The notes beneath the pieces are model-generated. The model worked only from the letters and a program-made list of their open reading frames with translations. It was not told the origin of the DNA and did no database searches. A DNA stretch of 64,000 bases, from contig CACFCI010000001.1 of the NCBI GenBank assembly GCA_902564785.1, positions 1 to 64,000 on the forward strand. The letters are read 5' to 3'. The translations under genes were made by a program, and so were the position numbers. How positions within the stretch are numbered: position 1 is the stretch's first letter; each line of letters opens with the position of its first letter. Below, piece after piece: positions 34,361 to 59,916 of the stretch. The stretch comes from an uncultured Pelagibacteraceae bacterium (GTDB lineage: Bacteria > Pseudomonadota > Alphaproteobacteria > Pelagibacterales > Pelagibacteraceae).

Positions 34361-35695
34361 CTACTGTCCATATAAGAGAGTTGGTAGCCATAGAGCAATC
34401 TGTGGGAATATGATTATTAAAATTAAACCTATTACTTGTAGAACCATAAATTGCATCATTCCATAATAAATGTCTTTTAAATCCCATTCAGGAACTACAC
34501 CTTTTAAGAAATAGGCAGACAAAGCTACAGGTGGAGATAGCCAGGCGGTCTGTAGATTTACAGCGACCAATATTGCAAACCAAGTTAAATTAAATTCCAA
34601 AGCTTCAATTAATGGTAAAAGAATTGGAACAATAATCATAACAATTGGTACCCATTCTAATGGCCAACCTAATAAAAATATTGCAACCATAACAATTCCT
34701 AGAATTAAATATTTATTCATTTCTAATCCTAACAAAAATTCAGTTAATAAGGTTGGAGTACCAAGTCTTGCAAATACAGCACCAAAAAAGTTTGATGCAG
34801 CAACTAAAACCATTATTAAAGCAGTAATTTCTAGAGTTTTAACGAGCGCTTCTTGAAGTTTAGATAAAGTTAATTTTTTATAAGCTAATGAAAGTAATAA
34901 AGCTCCCATAGCACCACAACCTGCTGCTTCTGTAGGTGTTGCAAAACCAAATAAAATACTCCCCAATGCTGCAAAGACGAGCGCTGCAGGAGGAACCAAA
35001 CCTAAGAAGAATTCAATCCAAACTTCTTTAATGCTTGCTGCCCTCATTTCTTCAGGAATTACAGGTCCTAATTTTGGATTTATCATACATCTTATTGTTG
35101 TGTAACCAGCGTATAAACTAGCAAGAAGAATTCCAGGTATTATAGCAGCAGCAAATAAATCAATTACAGGAATTTCCATAATTGGGCCCATTACAACAAG
35201 CATAATGCTTGGTGGAATTAAAATTCCTAAAGTACCACCAGCTGTAATTGTACCAGCTGCAAGTCTTACATCATAACCAGATCTATTCATTGATTTTGCA
35301 GCCATGATTCCTAGTATAGTTACTGAAGCACCAACAATTCCTGTTGCTGCAGCAAAGATAACTGAAACAAACAATACAGCATAATACAATGCACCTCTTA
35401 CTCTAGCCAACATCATTTGAAATGATGAGAACAATCTTTCCATTAGTCCTGCTTGCTCCATCATTATGCCCATAAAAACAAAGAGTGGGACGGCGGCGAG
35501 TGTTTGTTCGGTCATGACCATCGAAAACTGAAGAGTCATTAAATAAAAAACTAATTTTCCAAATCCCAGATATCCAAATACAAAACCTAAGAAAATTAAT
35601 GTAAATGAAATTGGAAATCCAACAAAAATAGCAAAAAGCATTACTCCAACTAAAATAAAGCCTAAGATAGCCGGATCTATTAATTCAGCAATCAT
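34361..35695 (-). CDS. dctM: TRAP transporter large permease (DctM)
   Basis: Twelve-helix secondary transporter subunit of a tripartite ATP-independent periplasmic system (444 aa). Diagnostic segments are GFPISFTLIFLGFVFGY, GIMAAKSMNRSGYD, GTLGILIPPSIMLV and the matching second repeat. It overlaps the dctQ stop by 4 nt. Sodium-coupled import of a carboxylate- or sulfonate-type solute is the usual role. Confidence 0.93.
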   Translation of the reverse strand: MIAELIDPAILGFILVGVMLFAIFVGFPISFTLIFLGFVFGYLGFGKLVFYLMTLQFSMVMTEQTLAAVPLFVFMGIMMEQAGLMERLFSSFQMMLARVRGALYYAVLFVSVIFAAATGIVGASVTILGIMAAKSMNRSGYDVRLAAGTITAGGTLGILIPPSIMLVVMGPIMEIPVIDLFAAAIIPGILLASLYAGYTTIRCMINPKLGPVIPEEMRAASIKEVWIEFFLGLVPPAALVFAALGSILFGFATPTEAAGCGAMGALLLSLAYKKLTLSKLQEALVKTLEITALIMVLVAASNFFGAVFARLGTPTLLTEFLLGLEMNKYLILGIVMVAIFLLGWPLEWVPIVMIIVPILLPLIEALEFNLTWFAILVAVNLQTAWLSPPVALSAYFLKGVVPEWDLKDIYYGMMQFMVLQVIGLILIIIFPQIALWLPTLLYGQ

Positions 35696-36306
35696 TCATC
35701 TTCTCCTGGCCACTTTCCTCGTGTGGCAGCCCAATAGCTTTTAAATAATTCTGAAATACCTTGGATTAGTAAAAATATTATTCCAATAAGTAGACAACTT
35801 TTAATTGGCCACATATATGGCATCCAAGTTGTATCCATTCCTCTCTCACCTCTTTGAATAGACTCCCCAACATATCCAATAGTCATGTAAAGAAATACTA
35901 ATAAGCCTGGAAAGTAAAATAATATATACAACCAAAAATCAATTTTGCCTTGAATCTTAGTTTTAAAATTTCTGTATAAAAAATCAGCTCTTATATGAAC
36001 ACCTTTAGAAAGTGCATATCCAGCACCTAACATAAAAAGTGCACCATATAAAAAACGACTTATGTCATAGGCCCAAATTGTTGGAGAGTGAAATAATTTT
36101 CTAGCAAGAACTTCGTAAGTCATTGCAAGAATTAATGGCATCAAAATCCAACAAACTACGTTGCCAACCCATTTACTAAATTTATCAATATTTACAATTG
36201 AACTTGCCATCCATGGTGGCATATCACTTGGCATTTTTCCTGAACCACCTCGCCTTTCAGCAATCATTTCATCAGAAATATCTAATTTACCTGGTTCGTC
36301 TGCCAT
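35692..36306 (-). CDS. dctQ: TRAP transporter small permease (DctQ)
   Basis: Four-helix membrane subunit (204 aa) coupling the binding protein and DctM. The segment YDISRFLYGALFMLGAGYALSKGVHIRADFLY is typical of the family. The N-terminal about 40 residues are a hydrophilic cytosolic extension. It is separated from dctP by 64 nt that hold a strong hairpin. Confidence 0.9.
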   Translation of the reverse strand: MADEPGKLDISDEMIAERRGGSGKMPSDMPPWMASSIVNIDKFSKWVGNVVCWILMPLILAMTYEVLARKLFHSPTIWAYDISRFLYGALFMLGAGYALSKGVHIRADFLYRNFKTKIQGKIDFWLYILFYFPGLLVFLYMTIGYVGESIQRGERGMDTTWMPYMWPIKSCLLIGIIFLLIQGISELFKSYWAATRGKWPGEDE

Positions 36307-36323
36307 AAATTTTTATAAAAAAA

Positions 36324-36351
36324 TTAGAGCGGACTTTATAGTCCGCTCTAA
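36324..36351 (-). terminator. Intercistronic hairpin between dctP and dctQ (attenuator/partial terminator)
   Basis: TTAGAGCGGACT-TTAT-AGTCCGCTCTAA is a perfect 12-bp stem with a 4-nt loop, unusually G+C-rich for this genome. On the minus strand it is followed at once by TTTTTTTATA, so it has the exact form of a Rho-independent terminator. Because dctQM lies downstream, it most likely ends most transcripts after dctP (or stabilises the dctP mRNA 3' end), giving more binding protein than permease. Confidence 0.8.
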
Positions 36352-36370
36352 CATAAAGATTATTTAATGA

Positions 36371-37465
36371 TTACTTTAATGTTGCTGCGTGAGCCATTCC
36401 TAGCTTAGCATTAGACATTTGAGCACCACTCCAGAAAGGAACTGCAATATCAGCAAATTCTTTCATAGAGTCCCAAACTTCAGCAAAGAATGCATTTTTA
36501 GCTGCGTTTGTTTCCAAACTTTTCTTAGCAGCTGCCATGTATTCAGTGAAGTAATCAGAAGGAGTATCTTCTAATTTTACACCATGAACTTCAGTAAGCT
36601 CTTTTAAAGCTTTTCCGTTTTCATAGATTCTATAACTTAGAGATTTCGCTAGAGATGCATTTGCTGCAACTTCTAGAGACTTCTTCTCATGAGCACTCAT
36701 AGCATTGTATGTTTTTCCAGTAATATAAAAGTCAGCATTTACGACTACTTGGTGCAAACCTTGTAAGTAGTAGTGCTTTAATACTTTTTGGAAACCAAAC
36801 GTTAAGTCTGGCTTTGGACAACACCATTCAGCAGCATCAATAGTTCCTGCTTCTAGAGCTGGTAGAATATCTCCACCACCCATAGCTACAGATGCAATAC
36901 CAATGTCTTTGTATGTTTGTCCTGGAATTCCTGGAGGAGTTCTGAATTTATATTTTCTAAAGTCAGCCATATCTTTAATTGGTTTAGGGAACCAACCTAA
37001 AGCTTCTGGTCCAACTGGTTGAATCATAAATCCTTTAATATCTCTTCCCATTTCTTTCCATAGTCTGTCATATAGTTCTTTTCCTCCACCATATTGAAAC
37101 CATGATAGGAATGCGATGTTGTCAATACCAACACCACCACCAGCTACTGGCGAACCAAATAGCATAGCTGCAGGGTGATCACCTGACCAATAATGCGTCC
37201 AAGCGAATCCACAATCGATTAAACCTTTGTCAACTGCGTCTAGAGTTTCTTTTACACCAACAACTGCTCCTGCAGGCATAATTTCAAACTTTAGAGATCC
37301 ACCAGTCAATTCGGTTACAGTGTCAGTAAAATCCTTTAACATTTTAACTTCATCAGCTTTAGTGTTAAGAACAGTCTGACATTTTAGTGTTTTTGCCGCA
37401 TTAGCATTTGAAATAAATCCAAATACCATTGCAACTGCAAATAACATTGAAATGATTTTTTTCAT
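36371..37465 (-). CDS. dctP: TRAP transporter solute-binding protein (DctP)
   Basis: Periplasmic binding protein (364 aa) with a signal peptide ending near ANAA (about residue 23). The DctP-family region IDCGFAWTHYWSGDHPAAMLFG and the conserved Arg-containing segment KFRTPPGIPGQTY are visible. DAAEWCCPKPD lies at the ligand-site helix. The aromatic-rich binding region resembles the keto acid/TakP-like subgroup more than C4-dicarboxylate DctP. A good SD (GAGAGGGAAACA) precedes the start. It is divergent from a GMC oxidoreductase gene, with 142 nt between them. Confidence 0.9.
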   Translation of the reverse strand: MKKIISMLFAVAMVFGFISNANAAKTLKCQTVLNTKADEVKMLKDFTDTVTELTGGSLKFEIMPAGAVVGVKETLDAVDKGLIDCGFAWTHYWSGDHPAAMLFGSPVAGGGVGIDNIAFLSWFQYGGGKELYDRLWKEMGRDIKGFMIQPVGPEALGWFPKPIKDMADFRKYKFRTPPGIPGQTYKDIGIASVAMGGGDILPALEAGTIDAAEWCCPKPDLTFGFQKVLKHYYLQGLHQVVVNADFYITGKTYNAMSAHEKKSLEVAANASLAKSLSYRIYENGKALKELTEVHGVKLEDTPSDYFTEYMAAAKKSLETNAAKNAFFAEVWDSMKEFADIAVPFWSGAQMSNAKLGMAHAATLK

Positions 37466-37607
37466 TTGTTTCCCTCTCTTTATTTTTAAAAACGAAAGCT
37501 TGTCAAAGAATGAAATCTAAAACAAGTGTTATTATTGGATTATTTTAATTTTTTTGTGTACAGAAATGTTACAAATAAAAAATTTTAATTTATAAAAGTT
37601 CTAATTA

Positions 37608-39203
37608 ATGGATAATTTTGATTATATTATAATTGGTGCTGGATCTGCAGGATGTGTTCTTGCAAACAGAATTTCATCAAACCCTAAAAATAAAGTCTTA
37701 CTTTTAGAGGCAGGTGGCAAAGATACTAATCCATGGATACATATTCCTGGAGGATATTTTAAAACAATGCACAATCCTGAGACAGATTGGTGTTTTAACA
37801 CAGAAGAAGAGCCCTTTTGTGACAATAGAAAGATGACTTACCCAAGAGGTAAAACACTTGGAGGAAGTTCTTCTATTAATGGAATGCTTTATATTCGAGG
37901 GCAATCAAATGATTACAATTATTGGAGACAATTAGGAAATGTTGGATGGTCATGGGATGATGTACTTCCTTATTTTAAAAAATCTGAAGATTTTCAATTT
38001 GGAAAAAATGAATTTCATGGATCTGGTGGCCCATTAAAAGTTGAAAAAATTAGATCTACTTTTAAAGTTTTAGATTTATTTTTAGAAGCTGCAGAGGAAT
38101 TTGGATATAAAAAAACTGATGATTTTAATAATGGTGATAATGAAGGAATGGGGTATTTCCCTTTAACAATTAAAAATGGATTTAGATGTAGCACAGCAGT
38201 CGGATATTTAAATCCAATAAAAAATAGAAGTAATTTAAAGATTATAACTAAAGCTCACATAAAAAATATTGAGTTTGAAAATAAAATTGCCAAAAAAGTT
38301 AATTTTTGGACTGGTGATAAGTTAAACACTGTAGAAGCAAATGGTGAAATTATTTTAAGTGCTGGTACTATTGGATCTCCACATATTCTTCAAGCTTCCG
38401 GTTTGGGTCCTGCTAAATTATTAAAAGATAACGGTATTGAAGTATTAATGGAAAATAAAAGCATTGGCCAAAACTTAACGGACCATCTTATGTTAAGACC
38501 TGTTTATAAAATAAAAAATTTAGAAACATTAAATGATATTTATTATAGTTTAACTAAAAAAATATTTACTGGATTAAAATTTTTCTTAACACGAACTGGC
38601 CCACTTACTGTTGGCGCTAGTTATTTGTGTGGTTTTGTTAAGAGTGACCCACATTTAGAAACTCCTAACTTACAATTTCATGTTTCTCCAGCTAGTACCG
38701 ATCTTTTAGGAAAATCATCATTACATAAATTTCCTGCTTTCACACCAACTATCACTAATGTAAGACCTACTAGCAGAGGATCAATTGAACTAAAATCTTC
38801 AGATACGAGAATTCCTCCAAAAATTAAAATGAACTATTTATCTACACATGAAGATAGAGAGATAGCAGGTAAGTCTCTTAAAATAGTAAGAAAAATAGTT
38901 ATGGAGTCCAAAGCCTATAAAGATTATGAACCAGAGGAATTAAGACCAGGCATAAATATTAATAATATTGAGCAGCTGGCTATTGAAGCGGGAAAATATG
39001 CTAATACAATTTTCCATCCTGTAAGTACGTGTAGAATGGGTAAAGATGAAAATGCAGTAGTTTCTGATCAGTTAAAAGTTCATGGAATAAAAAACTTAAG
39101 AGTGATTGATGCATCAGTAATGCCATATATCACCTCAGGAAATACAAATGCACCTACAATAATGATTGCAGAAAAAGGTGCGGACATGATACTACAGCAA
39201 TAA
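37608..39203 (+). CDS. GMC-family FAD oxidoreductase (choline/alcohol dehydrogenase type)
   Basis: Flavoprotein oxidising an alcohol to an aldehyde (531 aa). The FAD fold is at the N-terminus (DYIIIGAGSAGCVLANRIS). GGSSSINGMLYIRG is GMC signature 1, GEIILSAGTIGSPHILQASG signature 2. The catalytic His is in FHPVSTCRMG and the C-terminal NTNAPTIMIAEKGADMI is typical. The frame gives no signal peptide. Divergent dctPQM and nearby xsc make an isethionate dehydrogenase (IseJ-like) role attractive, but choline or other alcohols remain possible. Confidence 0.9.
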   Translation: MDNFDYIIIGAGSAGCVLANRISSNPKNKVLLLEAGGKDTNPWIHIPGGYFKTMHNPETDWCFNTEEEPFCDNRKMTYPRGKTLGGSSSINGMLYIRGQSNDYNYWRQLGNVGWSWDDVLPYFKKSEDFQFGKNEFHGSGGPLKVEKIRSTFKVLDLFLEAAEEFGYKKTDDFNNGDNEGMGYFPLTIKNGFRCSTAVGYLNPIKNRSNLKIITKAHIKNIEFENKIAKKVNFWTGDKLNTVEANGEIILSAGTIGSPHILQASGLGPAKLLKDNGIEVLMENKSIGQNLTDHLMLRPVYKIKNLETLNDIYYSLTKKIFTGLKFFLTRTGPLTVGASYLCGFVKSDPHLETPNLQFHVSPASTDLLGKSSLHKFPAFTPTITNVRPTSRGSIELKSSDTRIPPKIKMNYLSTHEDREIAGKSLKIVRKIVMESKAYKDYEPEELRPGININNIEQLAIEAGKYANTIFHPVSTCRMGKDENAVVSDQLKVHGIKNLRVIDASVMPYITSGNTNAPTIMIAEKGADMILQQ

Positions 39204-42434: not shown

Positions 42435-43739
42435 CTAAATTTCAGATCTAGCTTTGAAACGTTCATAAATCAATCTTGTTTTTACTCCTAAAGTTAAAAA
42501 TGGCTCAGGTGGAAGCCAAGTAGGTTTACTTCTTGACTCAATAGTTTCTATCTCTTTGGTATTTTCATTGCTTGCTTTAATTGCTATTTGTTCACCAAAT
42601 AAAGTTCCAACTCCTATACCTGATCCATTATAACAACCTGCAACAAATATATTTTCAGCTATTTTTTCAAAAATTTGAGAACTATTTCTTGTTCTAGAAA
42701 CAATACCTGACCAAGAAGATTGAATAATGTCATTAGGTAAATTAGGAAATCTTTTTTTAATTCCAATCTTTTGTTTAAGTGATCTTTTATTTAATTCAGA
42801 TTGTGACATTTGATAAGGATTAGAAACCTCTGCAGTATTTCTAATTAAAATTCTTCTATCTTTGGTCATTCTGATGGTGGCTCCCATTGGTCTTACTGGC
42901 AAAACTCCCCATTCTTTTGGCCCACCAATAGATTCATATTCTTCACTTGTTAAACATCTGGTCATACTTGCTGTTAGAGTAATGGGAAAATTATAATTAG
43001 ACTTTATTCCTAAAGATTTTAGAAATCCATTTGTTGCAAAAATAATCTTTTTAGTTTTAATTAAACCGTTCTTAAATCTACAAATAACCGTATCTTTAAC
43101 CTTTTCCCAGTTTAATAATGAGGAATTTTCATAAAGCTTTACATTTTCTGGTAATGTATCAATCATTGCTCTAACCAATTTACCTGGATGTAGTAAAATT
43201 CCTCCCTTTGTATAAAGAGCAATGTTGTAAAAATTGGTACCTAATCTTTCATTAAGTTCTTTGCTAGATAATAAATTATGTTCAAAACCCAATTTAGATA
43301 AATTGTAAGAAAAATTGCCTAATATTTTTTTATCCTCTATTTTTGATGAAGCAAAAAACTTCCCACATTCATTCCATTCACAATCTACCTGATGCTCTTT
43401 AATAAATTTTTTAACAGCTTCTACTCCTAATTTGTAAATGTCTGTTTTTTTTTTATAATTATGTAGTTCTTTATTAGATGTAAAACCATCATTAAGAGTT
43501 GTATCAACCAGATAACCTGAATTTCTTGAGCTAGCACCTTCGCCTGCTAACTGAGCATCAATTAATATAATATTTTGATTAGAATGTAATTGAGCTAATT
43601 TTCTTGCAGCTGACAAACCTGTATAGCCAGCTCCTATTATTAACCAATCACAATTTTCATCAGATATTATAGACTTAATATTTGTTCTTGGATTAAGATC
43701 TTTAATCCAACTACAACTATTATCATTTTTCACTTGCAT
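42435..43739 (-). CDS. DAO-type FAD-dependent oxidoreductase
   Basis: 434-aa flavoprotein of the D-amino-acid-oxidase superfamily. It has the dinucleotide motif WLIIGAGYTGLSAARKLAQ (near 32) and GAGASSRNSGYL-type motif EGASSRNSGYLVDT typical of amine/glutamylputrescine oxidase-like members; VAGCYNGSGIGVGTLFGEQ closes the FAD fold. It lies 39 nt downstream of xsc on the same strand. By context it could deaminate an aminosulfonate such as taurine to sulfoacetaldehyde for Xsc (compare TauY of TauXY taurine dehydrogenase), but no small TauX partner is seen. Confidence 0.82.
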   Translation of the reverse strand: MQVKNDNSCSWIKDLNPRTNIKSIISDENCDWLIIGAGYTGLSAARKLAQLHSNQNIILIDAQLAGEGASSRNSGYLVDTTLNDGFTSNKELHNYKKKTDIYKLGVEAVKKFIKEHQVDCEWNECGKFFASSKIEDKKILGNFSYNLSKLGFEHNLLSSKELNERLGTNFYNIALYTKGGILLHPGKLVRAMIDTLPENVKLYENSSLLNWEKVKDTVICRFKNGLIKTKKIIFATNGFLKSLGIKSNYNFPITLTASMTRCLTSEEYESIGGPKEWGVLPVRPMGATIRMTKDRRILIRNTAEVSNPYQMSQSELNKRSLKQKIGIKKRFPNLPNDIIQSSWSGIVSRTRNSSQIFEKIAENIFVAGCYNGSGIGVGTLFGEQIAIKASNENTKEIETIESRSKPTWLPPEPFLTLGVKTRLIYERFKARSEI

Positions 43740-43778
43740 TAAGTGACTTTACGATAATTGATAAATATTTAAAAGATT

Positions 43779-45563
43779 TTAAGAATTTAAAGGATTTTGT
43801 TTTTTCATATCCGATTTATTGATACCTGCAACTTTTACAGGTGCTTTCATAGCATCTCTCCTAAATGGTTCACCAAGCTCTTGATTTAGTATTACTTCAA
43901 TAAATGTTGTAATTCCTTTCTTCTGATCTTCACATGATTTTTTAATAGCTTGTGTGGTTTCTTCCATAGTTCTAACAGTTACTCCTTTTAATCCACATGC
44001 ATCTGCTACTTTTGAATAACTTAACTTTGGATCAAGTTCAGTTCCAATGAAATTATTATTATACCACAAAGTAGTGTTTCTTTTTTCAGCACCCCATTGA
44101 TAGTTTCTAAAAATAACCATTGATATTGCTGGCCATTCTTCCCTAGCACATGAGCTCATCTCGTTCATACTAATACCAAAAGCTCCATCGCCAGCAAAAC
44201 CAATTACTGGAGTGTCAGGACATCCAATTTTGGCACCTAAAATTGATGGAAAACCATAACCACATGGTCCAAATAAACCTGGCGCTAGATATTTTCTTCC
44301 CTTTTCAAAAGTTGGATAAGCATTTCCAATCGCACAATTGTTTCCAATATCACTTGATATAATTACATCATCTGGCATGCCAGCTTGAATTGCTCTCCAC
44401 GCTTGCCTAGGAGACATTCTATCAGCATCTCTTTTTCTTGCTTCTTTATTCCAAACAGTACCCTCATCATCATCTTCATGGTCAAGGCTTGATAATTTTT
44501 GCAACCAAGCAGATTTTGTTTGATGAATAATATCTTTTCTTTTTTGTCTATCTGTATCACCTGCTGTTGTTGAAAGTTGAGCAAGTATTTGTTGTGCAAC
44601 TAATTTAGCATCACCACAAATACCAACTGTAACTTTTTTTGTAAGACCAATTCGATCTGAATTAATATCCACTTGAATAATACTTGCATTTTTAGGCCAA
44701 TAATCCATTCCATAACCAGGTAGTGTTGAAAAAGGATTTAGTCTTGTACCTAAAGCTAAAACAACATCGGCTTGTTTTATTAATTCCATTCCTGCTTTTG
44801 AACCATTATAACCTAATGGCCCAGCGGCTAATGGGTGGCTTCCTGGAAAACTATCATTATGTTGATAACCAGAGCATACTGGTGCATCTAGTTTCTCTGC
44901 AAGTTTTTTACAATCTTCAATAGCACCTCCTATCACTACACCAGCGCCAGATAATATAACTGGAAATTTTGCTTTAGATAATAAGTTGGCTGCTTTTTTA
45001 ATTGCTTCTACTCCACCTGCTTGTCTCTCTAATCTTACAATTGGAGGTAGTTCAATATCAATAACTTGCGTCCAAAAATCTCTTGGGACATTTATTTGTG
45101 CAGGTGCAGACCCTCTAACTGCTTTTTCTATAACTCTATTTAATACTTCTGCCATTCTTGAAGGGTCTCTTACTTCTTCTTGATAGCAAACCATATCTTT
45201 AAATAGATTCATTTGTTCCACTTCCTGAAAACCACCTTGTCCCATAGTTTTGTTAGCTGCTTGAGGTGTAACCAATAAAAGTGGGGTATGATTCCAGTAA
45301 GCTGTTTTAATTGGTGTAACCAATCCCGTGATACCTGGTCCATTTTGAGCAATTACCATTGACATTTTACCTGTAGCTCTTGTGTAACCGTCAGCAATTA
45401 AACCACCATTAGTTTCATGAGCAACATCCCAGAAAGTAATTCCTGCATCAGGAAAAATATCTGAAATAGGCATAAAGGCAGAACCGATAATTCCAAAGGC
45501 GTGTTCAATACCATGCATTTGTAAAACTTTTACAAAAGCTTCTTCTGTTGTCATTTTTGTCAT
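43779..45563 (-). CDS. xsc: Sulfoacetaldehyde acetyltransferase
   Basis: Thiamine-diphosphate enzyme converting sulfoacetaldehyde plus phosphate to acetyl phosphate and sulfite, the key desulfonation step for taurine, isethionate and related C2 sulfonates. The 594-aa sequence has the ThDP family layout: N-terminal Pyr domain (HGIEHAFGIIGSAFMPISDI, catalytic Glu in AHETNGGLIADGY), central domain, and C-terminal PP domain with GDGAFGISMNEM. Residues such as QEVEQMNLFKDMVCYQEEVR are typical of Xsc rather than acetolactate synthase. An SD-like AGAGAGG lies upstream. Acetyl phosphate would need Pta, which is not in this window. Confidence 0.92.
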   Translation of the reverse strand: MTKMTTEEAFVKVLQMHGIEHAFGIIGSAFMPISDIFPDAGITFWDVAHETNGGLIADGYTRATGKMSMVIAQNGPGITGLVTPIKTAYWNHTPLLLVTPQAANKTMGQGGFQEVEQMNLFKDMVCYQEEVRDPSRMAEVLNRVIEKAVRGSAPAQINVPRDFWTQVIDIELPPIVRLERQAGGVEAIKKAANLLSKAKFPVILSGAGVVIGGAIEDCKKLAEKLDAPVCSGYQHNDSFPGSHPLAAGPLGYNGSKAGMELIKQADVVLALGTRLNPFSTLPGYGMDYWPKNASIIQVDINSDRIGLTKKVTVGICGDAKLVAQQILAQLSTTAGDTDRQKRKDIIHQTKSAWLQKLSSLDHEDDDEGTVWNKEARKRDADRMSPRQAWRAIQAGMPDDVIISSDIGNNCAIGNAYPTFEKGRKYLAPGLFGPCGYGFPSILGAKIGCPDTPVIGFAGDGAFGISMNEMSSCAREEWPAISMVIFRNYQWGAEKRNTTLWYNNNFIGTELDPKLSYSKVADACGLKGVTVRTMEETTQAIKKSCEDQKKGITTFIEVILNQELGEPFRRDAMKAPVKVAGINKSDMKKQNPLNS

Positions 45564-45606
45564 AAAACTAGAACCTCTCTAAAGTATAAATTTAAGTATT
45601 TATAAA

Positions 45607-45666
45607 ATTCGTTTGTTAATTTTTGCGATTAATATATAAGTTTTTACAAAATTCAAACAAACAAAT
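45607..45666. promoter_or_regulatory. Divergent xsc/suyA control region with inverted repeat
   Basis: In the 112-nt gap, ATTCGTTTGTT (45607-45617) and AACAAACAAAT (45656-45666) form an inverted repeat matching at 10 of 11 positions. Between and overlapping them is a plus-strand promoter candidate TTGTTA, 16 nt, TATAAG (45613-45640). The left arm overlaps the -35 and the right arm falls just downstream of the expected start, as for a repressor acting on suyAB. No SD precedes suyA. Confidence 0.35.
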
Positions 45667-45675
45667 CGACACGAT

Positions 45676-45960
45676 ATGGCGACAGACATTATAATTCACG
45701 ATGAAAAAGACAACGTAGGAGTAGTTGTTATTGAAAAAATCACACCAAAACAAGATTGCTCTTGTTGGGTAATGGAAAACGATAAAACAGTAGGTATTCA
45801 ATCTGCAGATGAAATTCCCTTAGGTCATAAAATTGCTATGACTGACCTTAATGAGGGTGATACGATAATTAAATATGGTCACGACATTGGAAAAGTAGTT
45901 AAGCCAATCAAAAAAGGTGAGCATGTACATGTTCATAATGTAAAAACAAAGAAGTGGTAA
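45676..45960 (+). CDS. suyA: (2R)-sulfolactate sulfo-lyase, small (alpha) subunit
   Basis: 94-aa SAF-domain protein of the UxaA family. It pairs with SuyB to cleave 3-sulfolactate to pyruvate and sulfite. Features are [13 protein letters not shown], the central [10 protein letters not shown] and a C-terminal VKTKKW. In fused UxaA (altronate dehydratase) this region is the N-terminal domain; here it is a separate gene 4 nt before suyB. Being next to xsc, exporters and aprBA favours SuyA over a sugar-acid dehydratase subunit. Confidence 0.87.
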
Positions 45961-45964
45961 TAAT

Positions 45965-47131
45965 ATGGAAATCCCGAAAAGTTTTTTAGGTTATAAAAGA
46001 GAAAACGGAAGAGCTGGAACAAGAAATCATGTAATTATTCTTCCTGTAGATGATATTTCAAATGCGTGTGCTGAAGCTGTGGCAAACAATATTAAAGGAA
46101 CAATTGCTCTTCCTCATTCATACGGAAGACTACAATTTGGAGCAGATCTAGAATTACATTTTAAAACCATGATTGGAACTGCAAAAAATCCTAATGTAGC
46201 TGCAGCGATAATTATTGGAATTGAACCGAAATGGACAAAAAGAATTGTAGATGAAGTTGCTAAAACTGGAAAACCAGTTGAAGGATTTAGCATTGAAGGA
46301 GCTGGTGATATTGAAACAATTATGAAAGCATCAAAAAAAGCTCAAGAATTTTCTATATGGGCATCTGAAAAACAAAGAGAAGAATGTCCAATTAGTGATT
46401 TATGGATTTCAGTTAAATGTGGAGAATCTGATACTACATCAGGACTTGCATCCAATCCTACTGTTGGAAATTTAATGGATAAACTTGAGCCATTAGGTGT
46501 TCATTTATGTTTTGGAGAGACTTCTGAATTAACTGGCGCCGAAACAGTCTGTGAAAAAAGAGGTAAAACTCCTGAAGCGCAAGAAAAATTTAAAAAAACA
46601 TGGAATGATTATAATGACTTTATTTTAAAAGAGGCTACTGACGATTTATCTGAAAGCCAACCTACTGCTGGGAATATTGCTGGAGGTTTGACAACAATTG
46701 AAGAAAAAGCTTTTGGTAATTTTCAGAAAATTGGTTCAAGACAATTTATTGATGTTTTAACTCCTGCAGAAGAGCCTGAAAAAGGACCAGGATTATATTT
46801 TATGGACACTTCCTCTGCTGCAGCTGAATGTGTAACATTGCAAGCTGCTGGTGGATTTAATATTCATTTATTCCCAACAGGACAAGGAAATATAATTGGA
46901 AATCCTATTGAACCAGTTATTAAGTTGACTGCTAATCCGTTAACAGCGGTTAATATGAGTGAACACATTGATTGTGATGTTTCAAAAATTCTTTCAAGAG
47001 AAATGAATTTATCTGAAGCTGGAGATGAATTAATAAAAACAACTTTAAGGGTAGCTAACGGAAGATTAACTTGTGCAGAAGCTTTAGGTCACAAAGAATT
47101 TGTGATGACTAAACTCTACAGAAGTGCATAA
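45965..47131 (+). CDS. suyB: (2R)-sulfolactate sulfo-lyase, large (beta) subunit
   Basis: 388-aa UxaA-type C-terminal domain protein; iron-dependent sulfo-lyase producing pyruvate and sulfite. The N-terminus [22 protein letters not shown], the segment [19 protein letters not shown] and C-terminal TANGRLT-type motif [18 protein letters not shown] fit the SuyB subgroup as I know it, closer than altronate dehydratase. Length equals known SuyB proteins. It is tightly coupled to suyA and followed after 8 nt by an exporter gene. Confidence 0.88.
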
Positions 47132-47139
47132 AAATTTCT

Positions 47140-48225
47140 GTGGCTATTAAATTACAGTATCTTAAATCAATTTTTCCAGGTGTTATTTTAGCTTTAATAT
47201 TTTGTTTATTTTCCCAAGGTATTAATAATGTATTAGCTATAGAGATCTTTGGAACTGAAAAAAGTCCAATTTCAACTGTACTAATTGCAATACTGCTTGG
47301 AATATTAATGGGAAACGCTTTTACTCCTAGACCAGGTATGATGATTGGTTTGGACTTTACCCAACAATACATTTTAAAATTAGGAATAATTTTTTTAGGT
47401 ATTAGACTAAGTTTTGCTGATTTTATAAAGTTTGGTTCTATTGCTATACCTCTAGTTATATTTTGTATTTTAGGGGTATTAATACTAATTAAACTTCTAA
47501 TAAAAAAAGTATCTATATCATCAAAAATGTCTTATCTGATTGCTATTGGTACAAGCGTTTGTGGTGCCACAGCAATTGTTGCTACTGCTCCAGTTATAAA
47601 TGCAAAAAAAACAGAGGTTGCTTATGCCATAGCTAATATTACATTATTTGGGGTTATTGCTATGCTGTTTTATCCTTATTTTGCAGAATGGTACTTTGAC
47701 AATAATGCTTTGGAAGCTGGTTTATTTTTAGGAACCTCAATTCATGAAACTTCTCAAGTAGCTGCAGCAGGATTAATTTATGACCAACAATTCAATAATC
47801 CTGAAACTTTAGATGTGGCTACAGTAACAAAATTAATTAGAAATACCTTTCTGGTAATACTTATTCCTTTATTTGCTTTCTTATATAATAGAGGTGAATT
47901 TAAAGATAAAAAATATTCAATTTTGAGTATTTTTCCATATTTTGTACTTGGTTTTATTAGCATGATAATTCTTAGAAATTTGGGAGATCAATTATTTTCA
48001 GTTGAAAGTGATAATTTTTATGCCTGGTCTAAATTTATTGAATATTTAAAAATTTTAACGACTGTATTTTTAACAATGGCAATGGCGGCAGTGGGAATTT
48101 CAATAAATTTAAGTGAACTTAAATCAATGGGATATAAACCATTTGTAGTTGGTTTGATTGCAGCAGTTACTGTTGGGATTATTAGTTTATTATATATAGA
48201 AACTTTAAAAAATTTTTTAATTTAA
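47140..48225 (+). CDS. COG2855/UPF0324 (YeiH-type) putative sulfate/sulfite exporter
   Basis: 361-aa membrane protein with about 10 helices, starting at a GTG 8 nt after suyB. The segments GLDFTQQYILKLGIIFLGIRLSF, IGTSVCGATAIVATAPVI and GTSIHETSQVAAAG are characteristic. Members of this family next to xsc, tau or suy genes are named TauZ/SuyZ/CuyZ and thought to export the sulfite or sulfate released from sulfonates. It ends 4 nt inside the convergent TauE-type gene. Confidence 0.85.
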   Translation: MAIKLQYLKSIFPGVILALIFCLFSQGINNVLAIEIFGTEKSPISTVLIAILLGILMGNAFTPRPGMMIGLDFTQQYILKLGIIFLGIRLSFADFIKFGSIAIPLVIFCILGVLILIKLLIKKVSISSKMSYLIAIGTSVCGATAIVATAPVINAKKTEVAYAIANITLFGVIAMLFYPYFAEWYFDNNALEAGLFLGTSIHETSQVAAAGLIYDQQFNNPETLDVATVTKLIRNTFLVILIPLFAFLYNRGEFKDKKYSILSIFPYFVLGFISMIILRNLGDQLFSVESDNFYAWSKFIEYLKILTTVFLTMAMAAVGISINLSELKSMGYKPFVVGLIAAVTVGIISLLYIETLKNFLI

Positions 48226-49301
48226 GATTTTACTAATAACTTTTTTCTCAAGTTTGAAATAAAACGTCTAATAAATGCTGCTCCAACACCTAAAATAATT
48301 GCAAACATAATCGTAAATAATCCATAAAAGAAAGGCATCTCTTTTGAAAAATCAATTATAAATTGAGAAAAGAAATTTAAATCTGAACTAGTTGCATTTC
48401 CAGTTCCATTTATAATCTGATCTGAAAAAAACGTATCGTATGCTATTGCTATACCTACTATTAACAATAAAATTGCTAATAAAGCTCTTAAACCAGAACT
48501 ATCTATTCTTTCTCCTAATTTTTGCCCTACCTGAACTCCTATTATAGATCCTACAACTAACATAAGAACTAATAATAAATCTATAGATCCATAATTAAAT
48601 GAATGAAGAAAAGTAACAATCACACTTACAAAAATTGTTACAAATAAAGATGTACCAGGAACTAATTTAGTAGGCATTTTAATTATATAAATCATTGCTG
48701 GAACTAAAATAAATGCACCTCCAATTCCCATAATAGCAGCAATAAAACCAACTAATAGACCAATTATAATTGGAGTAAAAATACTCTCATATAATTTAGA
48801 CTTTGGAAATCTCATTCTTACTGGAAGACCATGTATCCAATAATGAACATGTAATTTTTTTTTAACTACGACATTTCTTTTTGCTTTATCTATTTCACCC
48901 AAACTTTCAACCAACATTAAAGTTCCGATTATTGCTAATATATACATATAAGCCAGTGAGATAACTGTATCAATTTTTCCAATACCTTTAAAATATGTAA
49001 AAGTATAAATTCCTAAAGAAGTTCCAATTACTCCTCCAATCACAATCATTGAACCCATTTTATAATCTAAAGTATTTTTTAAATAATGAGTGGTAGATCC
49101 TGAAACTGATGTAGCTAAAATATTATTTGCCTCATTGGCAACTGCGTATGCAGGAGGTATTCCTAAAAAGATTAAAAAAGGTGTCATCAAAAACCCTCCA
49201 CCAACACCAAATAAACCCGAAAGCACTCCAACAATTGCACTTAATAAAAGTATCTCAATAGGATTAACAAAAACTTGAGCTATCGGTAAAAATACTTCCA
49301 T
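48222..49301 (-). CDS. TauE/SafE-family sulfite exporter-like protein, long form
   Basis: 359-aa membrane protein. Two homologous halves begin LSAIVGVLSGLFGVGGGFLMTP and GLLVGFIAAIMGIGGAFILVPAMI. It is about 100 residues longer than the common 250-270 aa form because of a charged cytoplasmic loop (about 133-170, KRNVVVKKKLHVHYW) and a longer C-terminus. Context next to suy/apr genes suggests sulfite or organosulfonate export. Different substrates occur in this broad family. Confidence 0.83.
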   Translation of the reverse strand: MEVFLPIAQVFVNPIEILLLSAIVGVLSGLFGVGGGFLMTPFLIFLGIPPAYAVANEANNILATSVSGSTTHYLKNTLDYKMGSMIVIGGVIGTSLGIYTFTYFKGIGKIDTVISLAYMYILAIIGTLMLVESLGEIDKAKRNVVVKKKLHVHYWIHGLPVRMRFPKSKLYESIFTPIIIGLLVGFIAAIMGIGGAFILVPAMIYIIKMPTKLVPGTSLFVTIFVSVIVTFLHSFNYGSIDLLLVLMLVVGSIIGVQVGQKLGERIDSSGLRALLAILLLIVGIAIAYDTFFSDQIINGTGNATSSDLNFFSQFIIDFSKEMPFFYGLFTIMFAIILGVGAAFIRRFISNLRKKLLVKS

Positions 49302-49331
49302 AAAAAAATTTAAAAGTTGCTAAAAAACAAC

Positions 49332-49502
49332 TTAGTTAAAAGTGATAAAAGTTCCAACTATAATCACTCCCCAATAAGCCGTTAAGCTTGCTATAATTCC
49401 TGCTTTAATAAATGTAGTTTTAAAATTTGAGAATTTGTTAATAATTTTTACGTTAGAAAGTAACATTAAATTCGTCAATACACCCACAACGAAATTTGTC
49501 AA
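49332..49502 (-). CDS. Possible small two-helix membrane protein
   Basis: Not in the ORF track. The minus-strand frame reads from a TTG at 49502 (LTNFVVGVLTNLMLLSNVK...), with an internal ATG at 49466 giving 44 aa, to TAA at 49332. Two hydrophobic stretches (TNFVVGVLTNLMLL and GIIASLTAYWGVIIVGTFI) are separated by a basic loop. It lies 32 nt after the 116-aa apr-linked gene. The start codon is uncertain. Confidence 0.4.
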   Translation of the reverse strand: MTNFVVGVLTNLMLLSNVKIINKFSNFKTTFIKAGIIASLTAYWGVIIVGTFITFN

Positions 49503-49534
49503 ACAATTATTTATTATTAAGCAATTTTTTTTGC

Positions 49535-49885
49535 CTAGTAGATGGTAGCTCCAAAAACTTTAATTGCATCGTCCTCAACTCCTAAGACCAGCCTTCCAAG
49601 GAACTCTCCTGGGATCTCTTTATTAGTCTGTTTAATTAAAATAGTTATATAGTCCCCTCTTCTTAGACATCCAAACGGTTCAAAAGTCTCTTTAAGGTTA
49701 GTAATCAGCTTGTTATTAGCCCACTGCTTACCAAGCTCTACTTCGTTAGCACCAAAAAGCATTTGAGTAGAGAAATCTTTAGTGAAACCACCGTAATCTT
49801 TAAGGTTTGATGATTTAACCAAATTATCCCAAATTGGTTTGGCTAATTCATATATCTCATCATCGGTTTTAGATAAAATATCCAT
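49535..49885 (-). CDS. Unrecognised 116-aa protein of the APS-reductase operon
   Basis: Soluble, no signal peptide or membrane helix. N-terminal acidic helices (DDEIYELAKPIWDNLVKSSN) are followed by a beta-rich C-terminal half (GCLRRGDYITILIKQTNKE, FLGRLVLGVEDDAIKVFG) with a single cysteine near residue 73. It begins 21 nt after the aprA stop on the same strand, so it is almost certainly co-expressed with aprMBA. I do not recognise the family. It could be an assembly factor, an electron-transfer partner or a regulator of AprBA. Confidence 0.7.
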   Translation of the reverse strand: MDILSKTDDEIYELAKPIWDNLVKSSNLKDYGGFTKDFSTQMLFGANEVELGKQWANNKLITNLKETFEPFGCLRRGDYITILIKQTNKEIPGEFLGRLVLGVEDDAIKVFGATIY

Positions 49886-49906
49886 AAATTTTATTTGAAA
49901 AGTTTA

Positions 49907-51766
49907 TTAAGAAGCTTTTTTCTTCTCGTTCTCATCCACTATATGGTAGACAGGAACTTTCTCCATACTAAACTTACCAGTCTTAGGGTCTCTTCTAGAA
50001 ACTGTTAAACAATGCCAATTATCATCATCAAGTTTCATATGATCGCCTCTATAATAATATCCAGGCCATCTAGTTTCTTCTCTAAACATAGTATGTTCTG
50101 TTACGCACTGAGATGTCAAAGCTCTGTGTTTAAGCTCCCATGCCCTCATAAGCTGGTGATAATCCTCAGCTCCCACGTTTTCAAGATCTTCCTCAAGCCA
50201 AGCTAACAATTCTAATCCTCTTTTTAGCATATTAGCATTAGTCATATAGTTTGTAGCTATTCCACCTACATATTCATCCATTATTCTTTGTAAACGTTGT
50301 AAGCCTTGAATTGGTGAGATATAGCTTGGAGATACAGTTCCGCCTGTAATCTCATTTTGAGCAACTGTATAATTTTCTAAAGGTTTGTAAACTTTAACTT
50401 TGAAATCTTCACATTGTTTATCTGATACTTTTAAACCCTCAGCTTTTTTGTCTTCAATATATTTTACAGCTGCTTTTGCTGCTAATCTACCCTCAGTAAA
50501 TGAGCCTGACGAAAATTTGTGAGCGCTTCCACCTACAGTATCACCTGCTCCAAATAATCCATCAATTGTTAACATTCTGTTGTAGCCCCAGAAGTACTCT
50601 GGTGGAGACAGGTCCTCTGGTCCACTTACCCAGGCTCCTGAACAAGTAGCATGGGAACCCATTACGTATGGTTCAGACGTTGTTAATTCAGGGTTTGTAT
50701 ATTTTGGATCAATATTTTGAGATGCCCAAACAACAGCTTGACCTACTGTCATTCCTAAAAAATTTTCCCAACCAACAGTTTCTAAATGTGGATCTTGAAA
50801 AGCCTCAGTAGTAACCATATGGATTGGACCTCCACCTGCCATCGTTTCTTGAATAAAAGCATGATTTCTTAAACACGTAGGTGTTGGATGGTGATCTATA
50901 TATTCACCTACTAATTCTTTAGTCTGGTCGTACCATTTCTTCTCATAGTTTTCACCGTTTGCATTTTGTGTATATGTTTTTAAATGTAAGAAGTAAGCGC
51001 CAACAGGTCCATATCCATCTTTAAATCTACATAACACAATTCTATTTTCCATTTGAGTCATTTTAGCACCAGCTGCAATTGGTAATGCATATGCTGAACC
51101 ATTACTCCAAGGAGCGTACCAAGTTCTTCCCATGCCTTCACCAACAGCTCTAGGCTTAAATATGTGTGAAGCTCCACCTGCTGCAACAATTACAGCCTTT
51201 GCTCTAAATACATGGAAATCACCTGTTCTCATATTGAATCCAACAGCTCCACCCACTCTATTCTCTTGAGCCTCATCCATTAAAAGATGAGTAATCATAA
51301 TTCTATTATAAATTTTATCTGCAGATTTTTTTGCTGCTTCTGCAACAATTGGCTTATAACTTTCACCGTGGATCATTATCTGCCACTTACCTTCTCTTAA
51401 ATATCTTCCAGTCTCTTCATTTTTCATCATAGGAAGACCCCACTCATCAAACATATGAACAGTTGAGTCTACATGTCGAGCCATGTCATACCCTAAATCT
51501 TCTCTAACCATTCCCATCAAATCATTTCTTGCGTATCTTACATGATCTTCAGGTTGATTTTCGCCCCACTGCATACCCATGTAACAGTTAATTGCGTAAA
51601 GACCTTGAGCTACTGCCCCACTTCTATCTATGTTTGCTTTTTCAACACAAACAATTTTCATATCTCTACCCCAGTGCCTTGCTTCAAAAGTTGCACCAGT
51701 GCCAGCCATACCTCCACCAACAACTAATACATCACAGTCTTCGTAATGAGTTTTGTGCTTAGGCAT
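49907..51766 (-). CDS. aprA: Adenylylsulfate reductase alpha subunit
   Basis: FAD-containing catalytic subunit interconverting sulfite plus AMP and APS (619 aa). The FAD motif VLVVGGGMAGTGATFEARHWG is at the N-terminus; ANIDRSGAVAQGLYAINCYMG, AVIVAAGGASHIFKPR and the C-terminal GDHMKLDDDNWHCL are typical AprA. It shares 1 nt with aprB. In an aerobic heterotroph with desulfonation genes it most likely runs in the oxidative direction. Confidence 0.95.
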   Translation of the reverse strand: MPKHKTHYEDCDVLVVGGGMAGTGATFEARHWGRDMKIVCVEKANIDRSGAVAQGLYAINCYMGMQWGENQPEDHVRYARNDLMGMVREDLGYDMARHVDSTVHMFDEWGLPMMKNEETGRYLREGKWQIMIHGESYKPIVAEAAKKSADKIYNRIMITHLLMDEAQENRVGGAVGFNMRTGDFHVFRAKAVIVAAGGASHIFKPRAVGEGMGRTWYAPWSNGSAYALPIAAGAKMTQMENRIVLCRFKDGYGPVGAYFLHLKTYTQNANGENYEKKWYDQTKELVGEYIDHHPTPTCLRNHAFIQETMAGGGPIHMVTTEAFQDPHLETVGWENFLGMTVGQAVVWASQNIDPKYTNPELTTSEPYVMGSHATCSGAWVSGPEDLSPPEYFWGYNRMLTIDGLFGAGDTVGGSAHKFSSGSFTEGRLAAKAAVKYIEDKKAEGLKVSDKQCEDFKVKVYKPLENYTVAQNEITGGTVSPSYISPIQGLQRLQRIMDEYVGGIATNYMTNANMLKRGLELLAWLEEDLENVGAEDYHQLMRAWELKHRALTSQCVTEHTMFREETRWPGYYYRGDHMKLDDDNWHCLTVSRRDPKTGKFSMEKVPVYHIVDENEKKKAS

Positions 51767-52236
51767 TAGTAATAGACTCCTTTTTTAAAAGATTCTTTTG
51801 GAACGGCAGGAAGTTCACCTTCGATATTTAGTCCCTCAGGTTCTGTATAAAGTCTTTGTGAGTTTAATTCTCCTTGTTTAATTTTTTCACCATCAGCAAG
51901 TTTAGGAATAAATTTTCCCCATGGTTTTGTTGTTATTGGTGAAACAAAATTCTTTGTAGTTCCATTTCTAAATTTTATTTTCCAAGAAATAGTTCCTTTC
52001 TCCTCCTCACGTCTTACTCTAACACTATGTCCCATTGGAGCAAAATCTGCATAACCTCTTACGTCAATTGCATGATTTGGGCATGCTTTTACACATGAAT
52101 AACATTCCCAACAAAAATTAGGTTCTATGTTTTTCGCACGTCTGATATTTTCATCAATGTGCATTATATCAGATGGACAAATATCTACACAATGACCGCA
52201 TCCATCACATCTAGTCATATATACAAAAGTTGACAT
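51766..52236 (-). CDS. aprB: Adenylylsulfate reductase beta subunit
   Basis: Electron-transfer subunit (156 aa) with two 4Fe-4S sites: CDGCGHCVDICPSDIM (near 10) and CWECYSCVKACPNHAI (near 42). A C-terminal tail wraps AprA in known structures. It lies between aprM and aprA in the order aprM-aprB-aprA. Confidence 0.95.
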   Translation of the reverse strand: MSTFVYMTRCDGCGHCVDICPSDIMHIDENIRRAKNIEPNFCWECYSCVKACPNHAIDVRGYADFAPMGHSVRVRREEEKGTISWKIKFRNGTTKNFVSPITTKPWGKFIPKLADGEKIKQGELNSQRLYTEPEGLNIEGELPAVPKESFKKGVYY

Positions 52237-52267
52237 AATTTATTTTCTTTCCTTTTTTGTTATCATA

Positions 52268-53062
52268 TTAATAATGTTTTGGCTCTTCTCTTTTTATTCC
52301 CAGGCCAAATTGCTCTGGCGCGTCTGCAGGAGGTGGTAAATTATCTCTAGAACCGTCTGCTTCAGCCAAATTTTTCTGAATTGCTGCTCCAGGCTTGTAG
52401 AACATGTGAGCAAATTTTGACCAATAAACTCCACCGAATAAGACTAGATTTGAAACAACAAATAATGCAAAAAATAAGAATGACAAACCGACTTGATCAT
52501 TAAATTGAGTATAAGACCAAGCTAGTCCAAAAGTTGAACATGCTAATAAAGCTAGAACAAACAAATCAGCTTTAATAATTCTATACCAAGGGTGTGCTTC
52601 GGCAGAAACATCTACTCTTAAAAAAAACCAAAACCAAAATCCACCAACACATGTAAGTATTGCACCTACATGCCATAACATTGACCATAATGTAGAAGAA
52701 GTTTTATCTGCACCTGTATAACAAAACACTAGCATTGCTGAAGCAATCCAAAAGATTATAGTTCCATACATACCAAGAACATGTGCTAATCTTCTTTTTC
52801 CAAAACCTAATTCTGATGTTGTTCCAATGTCATAAACAGTTGTCTTAGCAATAATTTTTGCCTTCTCAGCAGCTCCAACCTCTCTTGTTGCCTGCAATTT
52901 TGCTTTTTTTGCATTGTTAAAGAAATAAGTTAAATTTTTATGATGTATCATCTGAATAATTGTTCCAAAAGCAATTAAAAGAACCATTGCAATTATAAAA
53001 CCTTGCATAACAACAGTAGGAATTACTTCTGATAATAAAGAAAATGGATTTGTTTCAAACAT
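52268..53062 (-). CDS. aprM: APS reductase membrane anchor AprM
   Basis: 264-aa membrane protein with five predicted helices (about 17-38, 92-115, 127-148, 163-183, 190-213) and several histidines near the helices (HVLGMYG, LWHVGAIL, KFAHMFYKP) that could ligate heme. AprM links AprBA to the quinone pool in sulfite-oxidising proteobacteria lacking QmoABC. It is the first gene of the operon, 31 nt before aprB. Confidence 0.85.
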   Translation of the reverse strand: MFETNPFSLLSEVIPTVVMQGFIIAMVLLIAFGTIIQMIHHKNLTYFFNNAKKAKLQATREVGAAEKAKIIAKTTVYDIGTTSELGFGKRRLAHVLGMYGTIIFWIASAMLVFCYTGADKTSSTLWSMLWHVGAILTCVGGFWFWFFLRVDVSAEAHPWYRIIKADLFVLALLACSTFGLAWSYTQFNDQVGLSFLFFALFVVSNLVLFGGVYWSKFAHMFYKPGAAIQKNLAEADGSRDNLPPPADAPEQFGLGIKREEPKHY

Positions 53063-53175: not shown

Positions 53176-53571
53176 TTACTTTCTTTTGTAATGTTGTTTT
53201 TTCGGGATCACTGACCTAACACCACCCTGAGGATTCTCCACATCACCTTCTCTTCTTGGAATTAAATGAATATGACAATGCATAATTGATTGACCTGCAG
53301 ATTTTCCTGCATTTGTACCTATATTGAAACCTTTAACACTATAATCTTGTTTTAAAATTTTTTCTTTAGTTTTTAAAATTAACTCATTACATGCCTGAAT
53401 TTCTTCTTTAGTAAGCTCAAAATATGTCTCAACATGCCTTTTGGGCACAATAAGACTGTGAAATTCTGAGACAGGGTAACTATCTGTCGATGAATAGGCT
53501 AGTTGGTTTTCAAACTGAAGCTTTTCTTTTCTTATTTTGCAAAATATACAAGGGTTATTTGGATCTTTCAT
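53176..53571 (-). CDS. HIT family nucleotide-binding protein
   Basis: 131-aa histidine-triad hydrolase, probably acting on AMP-linked adducts. The zinc-like N-terminal CIFCKIRKEK and the triad HCHIHLIPRREGD (near 103) are present. It lies 2 nt after pabC. Its placement just before aprM on the same strand is noteworthy because HIT proteins can hydrolyse adenylyl sulfate, but the gap and promoter suggest separate units. Confidence 0.9.
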   Translation of the reverse strand: MKDPNNPCIFCKIRKEKLQFENQLAYSSTDSYPVSEFHSLIVPKRHVETYFELTKEEIQACNELILKTKEKILKQDYSVKGFNIGTNAGKSAGQSIMHCHIHLIPRREGDVENPQGGVRSVIPKKQHYKRK

Positions 53572-59745: not shown

Positions 59746-59916
59746 ATGATTTTAGATTATGAACCAGGCGACAAAGTCACTAATCCTCAAAAAAAAGAAT
59801 GGGGTATAGGGCAAGTACAATCTATAATTAAGGATAAAGTGACAGTTAATTTTGAAAATGTAGGAAAGAAAGTAATTAACGCAAAAAATATTGAGTTAAA
59901 AAAACTAGGAAAATGA
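59746..59916 (+). CDS. DUF3553 family small protein
   Basis: 56 aa, too short for the track. The sequence [20 protein letters not shown] then [22 protein letters not shown] matches the DUF3553 pattern: a compact SH3-like/CarD-like barrel with unknown function. Its TGA overlaps the cysQ ATG (ATGA), so translation of cysQ is coupled to it. Confidence 0.75.

Follow-up and report, generated by a model that had tools for sequence, protein, structure and literature searches.

Conserved synteny of a SAR11 sulfonate and sulfite locus, with candidate proteins for the exit of adenosine 5'-phosphosulfate

A gene cluster for organosulfonate breakdown was analyzed in a 64,000-nucleotide stretch of DNA from an uncultured Pelagibacteraceae bacterium (hereafter the window, which is the start of contig 1 in an assembly of 1.03 Mb and 70% completeness). 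The nearest relatives of the source genome were single-cell genomes of Pelagibacteraceae. The cluster, at positions 42435–53062, carries genes for sulfoacetaldehyde acetyltransferase (xsc), a putative sulfolactate sulfo-lyase (suyAB), two exporters, and adenosine 5'-phosphosulfate (APS) reductase with its membrane anchor (aprMBA). It is read here, with a probability of about 0.75, as a conserved SAR11 route from C2 and C3 sulfonates to carbon with sulfite disposal, in which APS would leave by way of a small adenylyl-transfer enzyme. Few organisms on Earth are as abundant as SAR11 bacteria, and sulfonates are exchanged on a large scale between plankton and bacteria.

Conservation and layout of the locus

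Gene order was compared across Pelagibacterales in a set of 80 SAR11 loci, of which 49 span the whole cluster. The eight core genes are kept in the order xsc-suyA-suyB-tauE-orf116-aprA-aprB-aprM in 47 of the 49 spanning loci, and their clustering is therefore not due to chance; the two exceptions carry other genes after suyB. The same gene order is found in the complete genomes G267 and G357 and in the part of G012 that was compared. This comparison had been proposed in an earlier sequence-only reading, which took the interval for a compact organosulfonate-to-sulfite-to-APS module, and the identical order agrees with it.

The presence of SuyB, AprA, and Xsc was then surveyed in 62 genomes. The genus was represented by 36 genomes, a set with many incomplete assemblies; 31 had SuyB, 33 had AprA, and 30 had Xsc. 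The sister family (24 genomes) yielded Xsc in 20, AprA in 16, and SuyB in none, and in several of its genomes xsc and apr share a contig, separated by about 20 kb. All three proteins were absent from the complete genomes G158 and G435, which belong to another genus of Pelagibacteraceae, and neither suyAB nor apr was found near the xsc loci of 20 other alphaproteobacterial genomes. The compact form of the unit characterizes Pelagibacter, and the sulfolactate branch is absent from the sister-family genomes with apr and xsc. The module idea thus stands for the genus, where apr and xsc are syntenic and co-conserved with suyAB in a fixed locus, and fails as a description of one inherited block.

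Gene identities were assigned by NCBIfam and Pfam profile matches against curated cut-offs, and every named gene is an intact open reading frame (ORF) at its position. The genes named in the sequence-only reading (xsc, suyA, suyB, the COG2855 and TauE exporters, and aprM-aprB-aprA) were all recovered, together with two that it had left unnamed: orf116 and a DAO-type oxidoreductase, the latter lying where the interval begins. The features are as follows.

42435..43739, minus strand: DAO-family FAD oxidoreductase (PF01266, 134 bits; weak AmaA and Phn_aa_oxid matches), 39 bp downstream of xsc
43779..45563, minus strand: xsc, sulfoacetaldehyde acetyltransferase (TIGR03457, 964 bits; cut-off 676)
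45676..45960, plus strand: suyA, predicted sulfolactate sulfo-lyase small subunit (matches the N-terminal part of GarD; kept as the partner of suyB)
45965..47131, plus strand: suyB, predicted sulfolactate sulfo-lyase large subunit (identity to operon SuyB, and tree)
47140..48225, plus strand: suyZ-type COG2855 putative sulfate/sulfite exporter, accessory (PF03601, 232 bits; above the cut-off)
48222..49301, minus strand: TauE/SafE family sulfite exporter (PF01925, 155 bits; above the cut-off)
49535..49885, minus strand: orf116, conserved 116-aa ORF, 21 bp after aprA, probably of NTF2-like fold
49907..51766, minus strand: aprA, APS reductase alpha subunit (TIGR02061, 989 bits; cut-off 642; active-site residues)
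51766..52236, minus strand: aprB, APS reductase beta subunit (TIGR02060, 185 bits; cut-off 136; PF12139; eight cysteines)
52268..53062, minus strand: aprM, predicted membrane anchor of lineage-I APS reductase (position before aprBA; weak QmoC match)
53176..53571, minus strand: HIT-family protein between pabC and aprM (PF01230, 67 bits)

The genes are tightly spaced, with 4 bp between suyA and suyB, 8 bp between suyB and suyZ, 21 bp between orf116 and aprA, and an overlap of 1 bp between aprB and aprA. Promoter and terminator scans of the locus gave counts at or below chance, and the Rfam scan returned tRNAs only.

Proposed pathway and the exit of APS

Xsc forms acetyl phosphate and sulfite, SuyAB forms pyruvate and sulfite, and AprBA interconverts sulfite plus AMP and APS. 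In the proposed pathway, sulfoacetaldehyde (from taurine or isethionate) would be converted by Xsc to acetyl phosphate, and (R)-sulfolactate (from 2,3-dihydroxypropane-1-sulfonate [DHPS] or sulfolactate) by SuyAB to pyruvate, both with release of sulfite. Part of the sulfite would be exported by TauE, in some strains also by SuyZ, and the remainder would be oxidized to APS by AprBA with AprM, with two electrons passing towards quinone, a transfer that is plausible. The most likely exit for APS would be a small enzyme of a fold that moves adenylyl groups, either a nucleotidyltransferase of about 126 aa, encoded elsewhere in the source genome and beside aprM in some relatives, or the HIT protein next to aprM. 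Sulfonates would thus serve as a carbon source and perhaps as an electron source, their sulfur not being assimilated via sulfite reductase. The Xsc, SuyAB, export, and AprBA steps are predicted from protein families, the tree, active-site residues, and synteny; the direction of AprBA, the electron flow through AprM, and the exit of APS by either small protein are steps that we infer.

According to the available parts of PMC12636525 and PMC5069961, suyAB, xsc, and aprAB are core genes in Pelagibacteraceae and Apr removes sulfite. The genes and the proposed role are the same here, whereas neither the synteny nor a candidate for the missing APS step is mentioned in those parts. Sulfur acquisition, suggested as the purpose of these genes in the available part of PMC12636525, is not supported by the present survey, in which sulfite reductase (NIR_SIR) was found in none of the 21 genomes searched, including three complete ones of the genus; sulfonate sulfur is therefore not assimilated by that route. 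The fixed synteny, the contrast of SAR11 with other apr-bearing Alphaproteobacteria, and the named candidates for the APS step were not found in the literature searchable without subscription journals.

The assignment of AprBA with its AprM to the lineage-I, sulfur-oxidizer type of APS reductase is supported by sequence features. AprA retains N74, W234, R265, and H398 (A. fulgidus numbering), and AprB retains eight cysteines (two Fe4S4 sets). AprM had no Pfam match and was named by its position and a weak QmoC match; aprM occupies the same place in the sister family and in other Alphaproteobacteria. In sulfur oxidizers, AprM stands in place of Qmo with AprBA (PMC2211403), and the SAR11 locus resembles these lineage-I systems in the aprM-aprB-aprA order, in having AprM instead of Qmo, and in the residues kept.

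The downstream enzyme sets SAR11 apart from other Alphaproteobacteria with apr, in which sat is present and usually lies within about 2 kb. For the 20 Alphaproteobacteria outside SAR11 whose AprA passed the cut-off, Sat was present in 19 (one as a fragment), no more than about 2 kb from aprA in 15 of them, and the remaining genome had CysD. In contrast, Sat was found in 0 of 37 genomes of the genus and in neither of the complete genomes G267 and G357, and CysD in 0 of the 9 genus genomes tested. For P. ubique, apr transcripts and the absence of sat and cysDNC are described in the available part of PMC5069961. With Sat and CysDN absent, APS needs another exit. One fixed locus in a genus that lacks ATP sulfurylase and sulfite reductase sharpens the question of the fate of sulfite: the usual route of assimilation is closed to the sulfur of sulfonates, which must exit as sulfite or sulfate, and two small proteins can be named as testable candidates for the missing step.

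Several observations weigh against the proposed pathway. The sister family lacks suyB, and the sulfolactate branch therefore lies outside the older core. The upstream supply genes (uptake and oxidation of taurine, isethionate, and DHPS) were only partly traced in the source genome, and the negatives for sulfite enzymes cover sulfite reductase, SorAB and SoeABC not having been searched for. The HIT gene is closer to pabC (2 bp) than to aprM (113 bp), so that its allegiance is unclear and it may belong to a pab operon. In the genus, the nucleotidyltransferase gene is in most cases not near apr and has as neighbors an APS-kinase-like gene and oxygenases of the Rieske or Fe(II)/2-oxoglutarate (2OG) type, a setting that would suit other roles, and phage homologues of the protein, fused to a P-loop kinase, adjoin a NADAR gene.

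The nucleotidyltransferase nevertheless appears to be the best lead for the missing sulfurylase, as judged from its motif and gene neighborhoods. Its GRWQP-H-GH motif is invariant at key positions, and the fold with the H-x-G-H motif was found; no Sat-family sequence match was seen. AlphaFold gave no usable model, with a predicted local distance difference test (pLDDT) score of 45 from only 5 near-identical sequences. In the source genome, the gene is located on contig 5 (38269–38640) and overlaps the APS-kinase-like gene, whose product is above the Pfam cut-off for APS_kinase. In the sister family, the nucleotidyltransferase and kinase pair is convergent with orf116-aprA in all 6 loci read, and the nucleotidyltransferase was present in 16/16 genomes with apr and 0/8 without (Fisher p 1.4e-6, uncorrected for relatedness or linkage). 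CysD was absent from 5/5 apr-bearing sister-family genomes tested and present in 2/2 of those lacking apr.

Homologues on haloarchaeal plasmids (27–31% identity, E down to 4e-12) form the C-terminal domain of a fusion protein that begins with an APS kinase domain above the NCBI apsK equivalog cut-off, and a sulfotransferase gene adjoins. The fusion is like a 3'-phosphoadenosine 5'-phosphosulfate (PAPS) synthase in having an N-terminal APS kinase and a C-terminal nucleotidyltransferase, beside a sulfotransferase; it differs in that the C-terminal part is a domain of about 115 aa of the NMN adenylyltransferase (NMNAT; NMN, nicotinamide mononucleotide) type and not of the Sat family. The protein might accordingly be proposed as a minimal ATP sulfurylase without relation to the Sat or CysDN families, converting APS to sulfate and ATP in SAR11 and, through the haloarchaeal fusion, providing PAPS for sulfotransferases. 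We regard this proposal as tentative and, on balance, rather doubtful. If true, it would add a third, very small family of sulfate-activation enzymes, relevant to archaeal sulfation too. No paper linking a nucleotidyltransferase to SAR11 sulfate activation was found, subscription journals being outside the literature search.

The pair may instead have nothing to do with sulfite oxidation and serve NadR-like NAD salvage or the activation of another substrate, for which we judge the chances to be not far short of even. The best PDB profile matches of the nucleotidyltransferase were NMN adenylyltransferases, and the phage fusions beside the NADAR gene and the oxygenase neighbors in the genus point the same way. 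These are set against the APS_kinase and haloarchaeal apsK matches, the adjoining sulfotransferase, and the one-to-one match between nucleotidyltransferase and apr presence among the sister-family genomes.

Two neighborhoods of the nucleotidyltransferase gene were recorded besides. On contig 5 of the source genome (L189:8409-9260), a gene with a match to HalD/WelO5 Fe(II)/2OG halogenases (PF23169, 46 bits) adjoins the kinase-like and nucleotidyltransferase genes. Where the nucleotidyltransferase gene stands beside aprM (L049:16686-17357; L051, L054, L055, L081, L082), the flank is without pabCAB and has a CADD-family gene instead (TIGR04305, 302 bits in L049), and within SAR11 a CADD-type enzyme has possibly taken over the p-aminobenzoate route from PabABC.

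The HIT protein is an uncertain candidate for an APS phosphorylase or hydrolase, suggested by its family and gene position. Fhit- and Hint-type enzymes hydrolyze or phosphorolyze APS, and Thiobacillus denitrificans has an APAT related to GalT, which is in the HIT superfamily. The protein passes the Pfam cut-off and has the histidine triad HCHIHLI. Directly upstream of aprM, 62 loci had the HIT gene in 49, the nucleotidyltransferase gene in 7, and pabC in 6; in three loci, a HIT gene (49–53% identical) begins at the suyB stop instead. G298, the genome of a different and distant alphaproteobacterium, has a HIT gene between aprBA and xsc.

The HIT positions before aprM and in G298, together with TauE in all syntenic loci and SuyZ in some, favor pure detoxification, in which AprBA and the exporters would only keep sulfite low and APS would be hydrolyzed, for example by HIT, to sulfate and AMP with no gain of energy. 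Against such a use of HIT, the window-type protein was absent from the sister family, which retains apr, its gene abuts pabC, and in 6 loci apr has no HIT gene beside it. Detoxification in this form is a possible explanation, though we would bet against it. A general role of HIT as the APS enzyme is weakened by the same absence and the same adjacency to pabC. HIT-xsc pairing as a general rule was rejected, as none of 20 other xsc loci had HIT nearby and G298 was the only case. The G298 stretch (L166) contains sat, aprB, aprA, a CxxCxxCC protein, HIT, xsc, and GMC. A second HIT subtype was observed upstream of an HNH-like gene in a variable region ahead of xsc (L053:3829-4237).

Classical chemolithoheterotrophy, with sulfite oxidized to APS by AprBA and ATP then conserved by Sat, would fit the AprM-type AprBA with its intact residues and the sat genes adjoining close AprBA relatives in other Alphaproteobacteria. 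As noted in a SAR202 paper, ATP gain requires Sat as the second step (PMC5864207), and the Sat and CysD counts in the genus, as well as the published absence of sat and cysDNC from P. ubique, make this explanation improbable. The suggestion in the sequence-only reading that sulfite becomes an energy source via APS is accordingly not supported in that form, the known ATP-yielding step being missing.

Identity of SuyAB

The sole Pfam and NCBIfam matches of SuyA and SuyB were GD_AH/GarD (galactarate dehydratase) models; no specific model matches them, and their identity therefore rests on the tree and operon context. In the plasmid search, SuyB identities showed a gap, with 13 records at 59–70% and the next ones at ≤39%. 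SAR11 SuyB is 66–70% identical to SuyB of hpsNOP, slcC-comC, or suyZ operons. Five annotated relatives in the upper tier adjoin sulfonate genes: hpsNOP and suyZ in Paracoccus versutus and Rhodobacteraceae SC52, and hydroxyacid and Ldh-family (SlcC/ComC-like) dehydrogenases in P. aestuarii, Methylobacterium, and Rhodococcus. In the maximum-likelihood tree, SAR11 SuyB was placed within the sulfolactate/DHPS-operon clade with 100/100 support, outside of which were altronate, galactonate, and related proteins (sugar-acid dehydratases, 27–39% identity) and the UxaA paralogue of the source genome itself (27.8%).

The assignment of SuyAB to the two-subunit sulfolactate type rather than UxaA/GarD is thus supported by sequence comparison, and the clustering with sugar-acid dehydratases that would have spoken against the sequence-only reading was not found. 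A sugar-acid dehydratase role for SuyAB, with no true C3 branch, is what the profile names alone would suggest, but it is hardly credible against this identity and clade. The SuyAB-SuyZ operons of Paracoccus and other Rhodobacterales share the SuyB identity and the suyA-suyB-suyZ order, the latter as on Paracoccus pTAV3. Their suy genes travel with hpsNOP or slcC-comC and transporters, on pTAV3 also with a nearby sulfite oxidase, whereas those of SAR11 accompany xsc and aprMBA and have no adjoining dehydrogenases.

Accessory genes and variable slots

TauE was present in all 47 syntenic spanning loci. The COG2855 exporter was found in 14 of the 80 SAR11 loci and is hence accessory; the DAO-family gene, found in 18 of 80, was treated likewise for that reason. 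The DAO oxidoreductase is a candidate amine oxidase that might feed sulfoacetaldehyde to Xsc; its naming as a taurine dehydrogenase was set aside, the basis being family and position alone. What lies between suyB and tauE varies among loci (L027, L029, L039, L041, L046, and others): the COG2855 exporter, a HIT protein, a thioredoxin-like secreted protein of some 122 aa, or nothing.

The orf116 product is kept behind aprA at 41–100% identity in SAR11, the sister family, and one other alphaproteobacterium. Its AlphaFold 2 model (pLDDT 79.5) had NTF2-like proteins as best Foldseek matches (E about 3e-3, borderline), and the fold is probably NTF2-like.

A CysQ-like 3'(2'),5'-bisphosphate nucleotidase gene was observed at 59913–60683 of the window, 7 kb from apr (TIGR01331, 198 bits, under the cut-off of 229). 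Upstream of the cluster, at 34361–39203, TRAP transporter genes (DctM, DctQ, DctP) are divergent from a GMC oxidoreductase gene (37608). The GMC and TRAP genes were rejected as members of the module, GMC being detected in only 17 of the 80 SAR11 loci and so accessory. The GMC oxidoreductase may be an isethionate dehydrogenase, and in genome G221 (L234:6300-9683) a 76% identical GMC gene adjoins xsc in convergent orientation.

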